Below are positions 15,510-54,522 of a DNA stretch of 64,000 nt, in pieces. Each line of letters begins with the position of its first letter. The first letter of the stretch is position 1. The position numbers and the translations under genes are program-made. The notes below the pieces were generated by a model. That model searched no databases. It was given only the letters and a program-made list of their open reading frames with translations, and had not been told where the DNA came from. Source of the DNA: Natronorubrum texcoconense (lineage in GTDB: Archaea; Halobacteriota; Halobacteria; Halobacteriales; Natrialbaceae); NCBI RefSeq assembly GCF_900100335.1, contig NZ_FNFE01000004.1, positions 372,001 through 436,000 on the forward strand, given 5' to 3'.

Positions 15510-15583
15510 GGGCTCGTGGTCTAGCTGGTTATGACGCGGCCTTTACAAGGCCGAGGTCGGTGGTTCGAACCCGCCCGAGCCCA
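15510..15583 (+). tRNA. tRNA-Val (anticodon TAC)
   Basis: A 74-base cloverleaf. The acceptor is GGGCTCG pairing CGAGCCC, the anticodon stem CGGCC/GGCCG closes loop TTTACAA (anticodon TAC), and the T-arm loop is TTCGAAC. Discriminator A is at 15583; CCA is not encoded and there is no intron. Its 3' end is repeated downstream (see next entry). Confidence 0.97.
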
Positions 15584-15702
15584 TTTCTGTGGCGAGCAAT
15601 TCCGCGAGCCACAGAAATGTATGTGAGGGCGGGTTCGAACCCTATCAGTCGCGCGCAGCGAAGCGAGCACGTCTGATTTCGGTTCGAACCCGCTCGAGCC
15701 CA
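15584..15702 (+). repeat. tRNA-Val 3'-end satellite unit
   Basis: Right after the tRNA comes a hairpin (TTTCTGTGG pairing CCACAGAAA, 15584-15617) whose loop holds GCGAG-CAATTC-CGCGAG. Next is a T-arm fragment (15628-15648), then a second hairpin with an AGCGAAGCGAGC loop. Last is a copy of the last 22 bases of the tRNA (15681-15702), identical at 21 of 22 positions. The same plan follows tRNA-Phe and tRNA-His in this window. It could be an old attachment-site footprint or a repeat family of its own. Confidence 0.7.
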
Positions 15703-21808: not shown

Positions 21809-21882
21809 GCCGCCTTAGCTCAGACTGGGAGAGCACTCGACTGAAGATCGAGCTGTCCCCGGTTCAAATCCGGGAGGCGGCA
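21809..21882 (+). tRNA. tRNA-Phe (anticodon GAA)
   Basis: A 74-base cloverleaf with acceptor GCCGCCT/AGGCGGC, anticodon stem CTCGA/TCGAG closing loop CTGAAGA (anticodon GAA), and T-loop TTCAAAT. Discriminator A is at 21882; CCA is not encoded. Confidence 0.97.
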
Positions 21883-22005
21883 TACTTTTCCGCGAGGCAA
21901 TTCGCCGAGCGGAAAGTATCCAACCGACCGGTTTGAACGAGAGAACACGCAGCGCGAGCGAAGCGAGCGACCGTGTTCGCGTAGTTCACAATCCGGGAGG
22001 CGGCA
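21883..22005 (+). repeat. tRNA-Phe 3'-end satellite unit
   Basis: The same plan as after tRNA-Val. First is a hairpin (TACTTTTCCGC pairing GCGGAAAGTA) with GCGAGGCAATTCGCCGAG in its loop. Then comes a GGTTTGAAC T-arm remnant and a second hairpin (GAACACG/CGTGTTC) with a GCGAGCGAAGCGAGC loop. A copy of the tRNA 3' end at 21984-22005 differs from the gene by one inserted C. Confidence 0.7.
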
Positions 22006-22583: not shown

Positions 22584-22821
22584 CTCGGTCCGGGACCACT
22601 GCAGTCTCGGCGCGGGTCACATTCGGGCGATGGCAGTACCGTGGCGACTAACTCGTGAGCGACGGAGATGAAACCGACCGGACTCTGACCGCTGGACGTC
22701 ACAGCGCCGAGCGAAGCGAGCATCTGACGGTTTCTCCCGGTTCGAAAACAGGGCGTATTTCTCCGAACGACGCGGAACGTAGCCGAACGAGAGTTAAGCC
22801 GTTTCGCGGCAAAGGGAGGGT

Positions 22822-28842: not shown

Positions 28843-28924
28843 TTCCGAGAGTGTAAAACGGGCTCGACGGGCGGTGTCGCCCTCGCTGCTCGTCCTCGAG
28901 GGTTATCCGAATTGGGCGAGAAAA

Positions 28925-28944
28925 CCCACGACTTCAGTCGTGGG
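28925..28944. repeat. IS200/IS605-type terminal hairpin
   Basis: An 8-bp perfect stem with a TTCA loop (CCCACGAC-TTCA-GTCGTGGG), preceded by GAGAAAA. This is the characteristic right-end hairpin left beside tnpB genes in haloarchaea. No tnpA or tnpB is present here, so it is a remnant, a miniature derivative, or serves as a terminator for the two mini-genes that read towards it. Confidence 0.55.
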
Positions 28945-28950
28945 CAGATG

Positions 28951-29070
28951 TCACGCTATCAGAATGCCTTCTGACCGATCCGTATCCGATTCGAACTGTG
29001 AAATCGCCTCGGCGACGTCTTCATCGGTTGCGTCCGGTGGGCGCTGCTCATCGTCCGTTTCGTCAGTCAT
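28951..29070 (-). CDS. Acidic 39-residue mini-protein
   Basis: A 40-codon frame with ATG at 29068-29070 overlapping the stop of the next upstream gene by 8 bases, so the two look translationally coupled. It encodes an acidic N-terminus (MTDETDDEQRPPDATDED) and a helical VAEAISQFES part, ending SEGILIA. Its stop lies 6 bases before the IS200/605-like hairpin. No family recognised; it could be cargo of a miniature transposon or an antitoxin-like partner. Confidence 0.45.
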   Translation of the reverse strand: MTDETDDEQRPPDATDEDVAEAISQFESDTDRSEGILIA

Positions 29071-29224
29071 TTCTCGTCTCTCTGTCGGCTTCCTGTCTGT
29101 ATAATGAGTGGTGGAGATAGTTCACAATCCGTTCCGCTGGGTATCCACACCGCTGGCAGATGCTCTCCCCTTGCTGGGGATCCCACGCTGGCTTGTGTTC
29201 TCCATCGTCACACGTCGGTTTCAT
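29063..29224 (-). CDS. Small zinc-finger-like protein, about 53 residues
   Basis: A small protein with a Cys in MKPTCDDGEHK and a CQRC pair (ICQRCGYPAE), giving a possible C-x3-H/C-x2-C zinc site, then a basic helix (RIVNYLHHSLYRQEAD). The frame is open further upstream to 29272, but Met at 29224 starts the compact domain. It overlaps the 39-residue gene downstream by 8 bases. A weak inverted repeat (GTAA..CTACG..CGTAG..TTAC, about 29281-29308) lies upstream and could be the other end of a mini-element. Confidence 0.45.
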   Translation of the reverse strand: MKPTCDDGEHKPAWDPQQGESICQRCGYPAERIVNYLHHSLYRQEADRETRND

Positions 29225-29354
29225 TTGGTATCGCTTCCCTTCCCCATACGGTCGAACGGAGCCAGTATGCATAGCTGTCAGGTAATGTCTACGTTAGCTC
29301 GTAGGTTACCCCCGAGTAATTACGATCCTGGGTTCTGACCCGACGAATTTCTGT

Positions 29355-29715
29355 GGCTCACGAGGTCGTTTGCCGGAGCAGTACGGCTACTTCGAGGCAT
29401 TGCTCACTCCGTTCTCGATGACGCCGCAGGAAGTTCGGGTGCAAGAATCGAACCCGATTGCGAGACTCGCTCTGCTCGTCTCGCGTGACTCGATTCTCTG
29501 ACGACTCCTACGGCTCACGAATTTGTTCGCCGGAGCAGCAAAGCTGCTCCGAGCCATCGCTCACTCCGTTCGCGATGACGCTGCAGGAAGTCCGGGTGCG
29601 AGAATCGAACCACGGTCGATCGCTTCCTTCCTCGCTTCGCTCGGAAGACTGCGCTCTCTCTGGTTCGATCTCGCCTTCCGGCTTTTCCGCTCCTCACTTC
29701 GTTCGTCGCGAAAAA
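29355..29715 (-). repeat. tRNA-His 3'-end satellite array
   Basis: Reading away from tRNA-His on the minus strand, there are two successive copies of its 3' end. The one at 29590-29611 is identical over 22 bases; the one at 29433-29456 has two mismatches in 24. The first unit is 126 bases and has the same plan as after tRNA-Val and tRNA-Phe: hairpin TTTTTCGC/GCGGAAAA, a T-arm-like GATCGAACC, a second hairpin with a GAGCGAAGCGAG loop, then the tRNA end. The segments 29355-29456 and 29512-29613 form an imperfect direct repeat with a period of 157. Short open frames across this array are artefacts. Confidence 0.7.
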
Positions 29716-29788
29716 GTCCGGGTGCGAGAATCGAACCCGCGTCTCAGCCTCCACAAGGCTGAAGGATAACCACTACCCCAACCCGGAC
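29716..29788 (-). tRNA. tRNA-His (anticodon GTG)
   Basis: Acceptor TCCGGGT/ACCCGGA with an encoded extra G at -1 (29788) facing C73 (29716), the identity element of tRNA-His. The anticodon loop is TTGTGGA (GTG) and the T-loop TTCGATT. There is no intron and no encoded CCA. Confidence 0.96.
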
Positions 29789-29966
29789 ACGCTTGCAAGA
29801 AAAAATACGCGCGGTCGGACTGAAATACGTTACGACTCGAGTACGCACCCGTGCGACTCCGTACCGCGGGATTTCCAGACGCACTGCCGACGAGACCGTT
29901 ACACGCCACATCAGCGACCGTCGACCGGGACGTTTTTCGGCACACAGGCCCTAGCACCGCCAACGC

Positions 29967-54119: not shown

Positions 54120-54267
54120 GGACGCCTGTACGGGTGGCTCGTTCTAATAGCCTCCCCCTACTGGAAAAAAGTGTACGAGTGTTGGGTTATCGAGAGGTCG
54201 TCGTCGAAGGAACTTCGGGGAGCGCTACGTTGAAGTGCGATCGACGGCTACGAACGGGGTGAGCGCC

Positions 54268-54455
54268 GGTGTCTCACCGGGCGAAGCGAGGTGGGGCTCG
54301 ATACACGTCGGAGACGTGTTTCGGTGGTGAGCAAATCCGAAGGATTTGCGATTTTCGGCGCACAAGCGAACGAAGTGAGCGCAATGCGCCGGTGGTGAGT
54401 AGTTCCTTCGGAACTACGAGCCTCGGCGCGCGAGGAACGCAGAGACGAAGCGCGC
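54268..54455 (+). repeat. Tandem hairpin repeats re-creating the tRNA-Gly 5' end
   Basis: Units beginning at about 54268, 54322 and 54390 start with CGGTG(GT)-like copies of the tRNA-Gly 5' end, which itself recurs at 54456; the last two periods are 68 and 66. Each unit has a 7-bp stem with a 3-base loop of different sequence but kept pairing: ACACGTC-GGA-GACGTGT, CAAATCC-GAA-GGATTTG and TAGTTCC-TTC-GGAACTA. The last two units add a second hairpin with GGCGC/GCGCC ends. The rest of 54120-54267 shows no gene. Confidence 0.65.
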
Positions 54456-54522
54456 CGGTGGTCCAGTGGTAGGACTCGAGCTTCCCAAGCTCGCGGCCCG
54501 GGTTCAATTCCCGGCCGGCGCA
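54452..54522 (+). tRNA. tRNA-Gly (anticodon CCC)
   Basis: A 71-base cloverleaf with acceptor GCGCCGG/CCGGCGC, anticodon stem CGAGC/GCTCG with loop TTCCCAA (anticodon CCC), and T-loop TTCAATT. Discriminator A is at 54522. CCA is not encoded. Confidence 0.96.

Follow-up and report, generated by a model that had tools for sequence, protein, structure and literature searches.

Hairpin units bearing copies of the host tRNA 3′ end lie downstream of tRNA genes in nearly all Halobacteria

Why should a tRNA gene be followed by further copies of its own 3′ end, and what are the hairpins that lie between them? The question arises at a tRNA-His gene of Natronorubrum texcoconense, within a 64,000-nucleotide stretch of contig NZ_FNFE01000004.1 (positions 372,001 to 436,000), which was analyzed as a whole and is called the window here. 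The initial annotation had described two such copies, spaced by 126 and 157 bases, with hairpins between them and a 100-base direct repeat. All of this held: the copies lie at 29588-29613 and 29431-29456 with those spacings, hairpins separate successive copies, and positions 29355-29454 repeat 29512-29611 at 85%. That annotation lacked one component found in each unit, an inverted T-arm copy that forms the base of a second hairpin.

Read on the tRNA strand, a unit consists of a first hairpin (SL1) that begins at the first base behind the tRNA, the inverted T-arm copy (i), the core of the second hairpin (SL2), and finally a direct copy (d) of host tRNA nt 53-73, that is, the last 21 bases from the T-loop to the 3′ end. 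Pairing of the i and d arms gives SL2 a stem that derives from the tRNA. Tandem GA/GA motifs and apices of the form GCGNAGC or GAACGNAGTGA are common to SL1 and SL2, in each case on the tRNA-sense strand. The units are noncoding, measure roughly 75 to 190 bp, and number one to three or more per array. The array behind tRNA-His comprises two full units and one truncated after SL1:

29715..29788, minus strand: tRNA-His(GTG), host gene of the array (ARAGORN, Rfam RF00005)
29682..29714, minus strand: unit 1 SL1 hairpin, opening with TTTT right after tRNA-His
29662..29681, minus strand: unit 1 inverted T-arm copy (i)
29612..29661, minus strand: unit 1 SL2 core, apex GA-GCGAAGC-GA, right side CGACCGT
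29589..29611, minus strand: unit 1 direct copy (d) of tRNA-His nt 52-73
29499..29588 (inner boundary approximate), minus strand: unit 2 SL1, branched, with GCGAACGGAGTGAGC and GCGAACAAATTCGTGAGC hairpins
29489..29498, minus strand: unit 2 inverted T-arm copy (i)
29455..29488, minus strand: unit 2 SL2 core, class CACGCGAGAC..GTCTCGCAATCG
29432..29454, minus strand: unit 2 direct copy (d) of tRNA-His nt 52-73
about 29355..29431, minus strand: unit 3, truncated, SL1 only, 85% like unit 2 SL1

The 100-base repeat thus spans a d copy together with the SL1 of the unit that follows. The SL1 of unit 1 is common to tRNA-His loci in many Natrialbaceae. Two other tRNA genes of the window are each followed by a single full unit:

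15510..15583, plus strand: tRNA-Val(TAC)
15584..15702, plus strand: full unit of tRNA-Val (SL1 15584-15617, i 15627-15642, core 15643-15680, d 15681-15702)
21809..21882, plus strand: tRNA-Phe(GAA)
21883..22005, plus strand: full unit of tRNA-Phe (SL1 21883-21918, i 21927-21938, core 21939-21983, d 21984-22005)

A covariance model built on SL2 matched all three, at 29600-29672 for tRNA-His (E = 4e-8), 15631-15692 for tRNA-Val (E = 7.6e-11), and 21929-21994 for tRNA-Phe (E = 2e-12), confirming that the three genes share one design, as had been proposed. Three further hairpin features of the window were recorded. A hairpin at 22640-22745, some 760 nt behind tRNA-Phe and past an ORF, resembles an SL2 core in its GAGCGAAGCGAG apex and CCCGGTTCGAA end and is possibly a decayed unit away from a tRNA. 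Upstream of tRNA-Gly(CCC), at 54230-54462, partial copies of the tRNA 5′ end (GCGCCGGTGGT) alternate with GA-type hairpins in a mirror image of the 3′ design; a general copy system at tRNA 5′ ends was rejected, tRNA-Gly(CCC) being the only case among the tRNAs of three genomes. A GAAAACCCACGACTTCAGTCGTGGG hairpin at 28919-28945 gave a weak match to the Rfam family Acido-Lenti-1 and resembles the conserved end of IS200/IS605-type TnpB elements.

The design extends well beyond the window. At 26 of the genome's 42 other tRNA loci, a strong copy of the gene's own 3′ end lay within 330 nt downstream, compared with 0.46 expected from the DNA downstream of other tRNAs, none in shuffled sequence, and one upstream. 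The SL2 model gave 31 matches at E < 1e-5 in the genome, and every locus checked was a tRNA locus. Across 292 Halobacteria genomes it matched in 288, representing 75 of 77 genera (exceptions: G014, G054, G128, and G276); at most 17 candidates were scored per genome, and per-genome counts are lower bounds. In a sample of the phylum Halobacteriota, 51 of the 53 Halobacteria had a match, as against none of the 242 genomes from outside the class. A search of viral contigs and phage records yielded no real unit, and two plasmid matches were tRNA-borne, so that carriage of units by viruses or plasmids was rejected. Also rejected was a genome-wide excess of the GAGCGNAGCGAG apex (52 matches versus 51 for the reversed pattern). 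One unit (L059; G000, C2:904191) lies behind a tRNA-Glu with a large intron, a gene missed by both ARAGORN and the RF00005 search. No description of such units was found in the openly available literature that was searched. The finding is real and widespread, and apparently undescribed in that literature.

Are the copies matched to their host gene, as the initial annotation held for the terminal copy? An unbiased comparison used 57 model matches obtained without use of the acceptor. All 57 lay downstream of a tRNA and on its sense strand. Over acceptor nt 64-73, 9.0 of 10 positions were identical to the unit's own tRNA versus 4.2 of 10 for other tRNAs, which bears out the host match, and the own tRNA outscored every other tRNA in 51 of 56 matches. 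In this acceptor-independent set, identity fell to background past nt 73. Among copies selected by their match, identity to the own tRNA was near 1.0 over nt 53-71 and at background at nt 51 (5′ of nt 52) and nt 74. The inverted arm is host specific as well, at nt 57 (0.99 versus 0.72) and at nt 62-64. As in the att sites of tyrosine integrases, a direct copy of a tRNA 3′ end bounds the inserted segment.

Whether the units act as RNA or as DNA bears on the second of the early proposals, a signal for processing of tRNA 3′ trailers. Units co-transcribed with the tRNA could serve in 3′ processing or termination or as small RNAs; their constant position on the tRNA-sense strand directly behind the mature 3′ end, their conserved hairpins with paired changes, and their tandem G-A motifs would all suit a structured trailer RNA. 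The mismatches in their stems do not. Among 145 distinct units, whose stems were found without preference for mismatch type, we counted 59 G·T and 46 A·C mismatches, compared with 39 and 0 in the acceptor and T stems of tRNAs that served as control. Helix P2, which is not tRNA derived, carried double changes at all seven of its pairs. Neither the stem nor the pair counts are independent, because the units are related by descent. In the mismatch counts there is nothing to indicate that wobble pairs are tolerated on the transcribed strand, and the lack of a G·U excess argues against an RNA processing signal. Against a trailer RNA there is also a T-run within the first 7 nt of 57 of 106 units, where transcription termination would be expected directly behind the tRNA, together with patchy presence and core replacement among close relatives and an Rfam search in which tRNA was the only match at a meaningful score. 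The processing-signal reading is thus unlikely, and we regard a structured trailer RNA of any of these kinds as decidedly improbable. G·A, G·G, and T·T mismatches were commoner in the stems than T·C, C·C, and A·A, and the motifs keep to one strand (sense orientation in 96 versus 3 cases for SL1 and 88 versus 10 for the core). This bias, combined with the fixed motif strand, suggests, though it does not prove, a role for the sense strand in single-stranded DNA form.

How units come and go was followed at orthologous tRNA genes, where their number varies between congeners. Directly upstream of rpl18e, the junction behind tRNA-Leu(CAG) reads CTGCA directly followed by TC(C)ACTTCT in many Natrialbaceae without a unit (absent, for example, in G119, G149, and G270); in other species, drawn from several genera, a single complete unit sits at precisely this junction (present in G000 and G165). 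Presence and absence are thus precise, with intact flanks, a pattern that fits loss and gain alike. Since the Leu(CAG) unit diverges between genera as if vertically inherited, precise loss between the direct copies is a simple reading at this locus. In G119, Lys(TTT) is followed by two identical tandem units, a case of local duplication. At 63 tRNA-His loci of named species that adjoin a conserved neighbor gene, 29 had no unit, 25 had one, 7 had two, and 2 had three.

The cores behave differently from the arms. At least five core classes occur across species under the same SL1 and arm at tRNA-His, and tRNA-Pro likewise has different core classes under one SL1 and arm. Conversely, the Ile and Phe units of G119 share a core with a single mismatch under unrelated SL1 hairpins, one core class is common to Val, Arg, and Asp, and another is common to Ser and Thr. 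The borders of exchange coincide with T-loop palindromes, and the host-matched arms stay local. Addition at the tRNA-proximal end, as in CRISPR arrays, found no support in SL1 similarity. Free inversion of cores was likewise rejected: there is one clear case, in which the SL2 core behind tRNA-Ser(TGA) of G270 (L177) is inverted between its two T-arm copies, besides the Arg(GCG) arrays, and cores are otherwise strand fixed. The tRNA-Arg(GCG) arrays (L038, L157, and L185) consist of acceptor-end copies GTCAGGACG and hairpins of opposite strand sense; in G119, an integrase remnant lies immediately behind the array.

We favor a reading in terms of exchange or conversion and tentatively describe the units as a Halobacteria-wide family of DNA-level hairpin cassettes that recombine at tRNA 3′ ends, an account that we find plausible though far from secure. 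The hairpins would act as DNA rather than RNA, with the tRNA-sense strand as the foldable one. The direct copies would allow loss or duplication of a cassette by recombination, and the T-loop palindromes bounding each core may be the points at which cores are swapped, by either site-specific (integrase-type) or short-homology recombination. The array might then persist as a by-product or mini-parasite of tRNA-end recombination. The first of the early proposals, a self-propagating or conversion-driven element, is supported in part: the design is host matched at unrelated tRNAs and hairpin cores are exchanged among loci, as propagation or conversion-like exchange would have it; the analysis turned up no enzyme of the element's own. 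Several observations weigh against the cassette account. Neither a transposase nor a recombinase, which an autonomous mobile element would call for, was linked to the units themselves, and viral contigs and phage records yielded none of them. At a given tRNA, units may be of long standing and seem to have descended vertically, as at Leu(CAG), so that their precise absence elsewhere may be simple deletion between 22-bp direct repeats, and the strong sense-strand orientation is unlike the outcome of free inversion by a recombinase.

Much of the same pattern could arise passively, through replication slippage, template switching at quasi-palindromes, and ectopic gene conversion among T-arm-like repeats, which together would build, perfect, swap, and delete units with neither a dedicated recombinase nor a function. 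Direct repeats of ~22 bp flank every unit, so that precise loss and tandem duplication come free; all three arms are copied from the same host segment; and near-perfect palindromic stems with paired changes are the expected residue of template-switch correction, which could have produced the paired changes in P2 without selection. However, SL1 and SL2 core classes kept across Halobacteria require a common source or selection, and slippage alone accounts neither for borders that fall exactly at nt 53 and 73 nor for the confinement of units to the 3′ side. We rate purely passive dynamics as somewhat unlikely.

A more specific mechanism is suggested by integrons, in which attC hairpins with a GTTRRRY core form strand-fixed imperfect palindromes between exchangeable coding cassettes. 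The units resemble these in their tandem arrays, in imperfect palindromes of fixed strand orientation, and in exchangeable cassettes. They differ from attC in that the GTTRRRY core is absent, the T-arm reading GTTCRAA, and in that the cassettes are noncoding. That the units, at most tRNAs of nearly all Halobacteria, are strand-oriented, noncoding, integron-like hairpin cassettes with the T-arm as exchange site, moved by a recombinase that recognizes a folded single strand, strikes us as rather doubtful.

In prokaryotes, tRNA 3′ ends are classic landing sites of viruses and plasmids, and some arrays have integrase-like ORFs or integrase remnants at their ends. In G254, a tyrosine integrase (PF00589, PF02899) ends beside ATCCGGGCGATCCCA; next comes a tRNA-Pro-type unit, which lies ~19.3 kb downstream of tRNA-Pro. 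The arrangement in G270 is the same, with an element of ~16.8 kb between tRNA-Pro and unit. In both genomes, attR lies beside the integrase gene and abuts the unit (L383, L448, and L449; tRNA-Pro(TGG)), which implies that the elements insert between the tRNA and the unit. At tRNA-Pro of G000, the end of a related element lies behind the unit's d copy and there is no third copy (no attR copy), which fits, without proving, integration at the d copy. A fresh gain of a unit at tRNA-Pro(TGG), specific to G000 and made into an empty site, was considered and rejected; the flank taken as "empty" proved to be the left end of an inserted element, and in G254 and G270 the other end of that element lies against the same unit. 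The units themselves contain neither integrase nor attP, being hairpin DNA of 75 to 190 bp, and the integrase elements near units at some tRNAs are separate insertions. For the initial annotation, stepwise integrase footprints of different ages without shared hairpin loops would have overturned the idea of a common design; tyrosine integrases do use the same site, so that the footprint idea holds in part, though in a different form, but loops and cores are common to different tRNAs and genera.

Such elements raise the prospect that the units benefit the host as decoy attachment sites, with the d copies drawing integrases downstream and away from the tRNA gene. The integrase elements or remnants at array ends would fit, as would the left end of the related elements at tRNA-Pro, which lies behind the tRNA in G254, G270, G165, and G119 and behind the d copy in G000. 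Yet the tRNA itself was used in G254 and G270 despite the presence of a unit, and G000, without an attR copy, leaves use of its d copy unproven. Moreover, elements that integrate at tRNA 3′ ends normally reconstitute the gene, which makes the benefit of a decoy to the host unclear. We consider this explanation improbable.

The nearest known kinds of units are att scars and the rtT repeats of Escherichia coli. The rtT RNA repeats (RF00391) belong to a single locus, the tyrT operon, where they are transcribed and about 178 bp long; they too are tandem units behind a tRNA gene, each with a copy of a tRNA 3′ end. In the present case, by comparison, units accompany about two thirds of one genome's tRNA genes and are class-wide in archaea, with matching to the own tRNA, inverted arms, and swapped hairpin cores; within 28900-29900, nothing matched the rtT model at E values up to 1. 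Archaeal att sites at tRNA genes have been reviewed (PMC8371274), and misannotated tRNA fragments have been described (PMC9897764); the attL/attR scars treated there share with the units a direct tRNA 3′-end copy as attachment site, whereas the units are ~75 to 190 bp long, tandem, and noncoding, have conserved hairpins and an inverted arm, and occur at most tRNAs. REP/BIME sequences and the PATE and SMR palindromic elements of Haloquadratum (PMC3119063) are comparable as short noncoding palindromes scattered in intergenic DNA, but the units are tied to tRNA 3′ ends and their arms are host matched.

Copies of tRNA 3′ ends in haloarchaea are therefore not simply proviral att scars, which affects both the calling of provirus boundaries and the annotation of tRNA fragments. 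Class-wide cassettes of this kind provide many natural replicates of how tRNA ends recombine, and these replicates also bear on why integrases choose such ends and on whether hosts or elements profit. In haloarchaea, tRNA ends look like busy recombination hubs.
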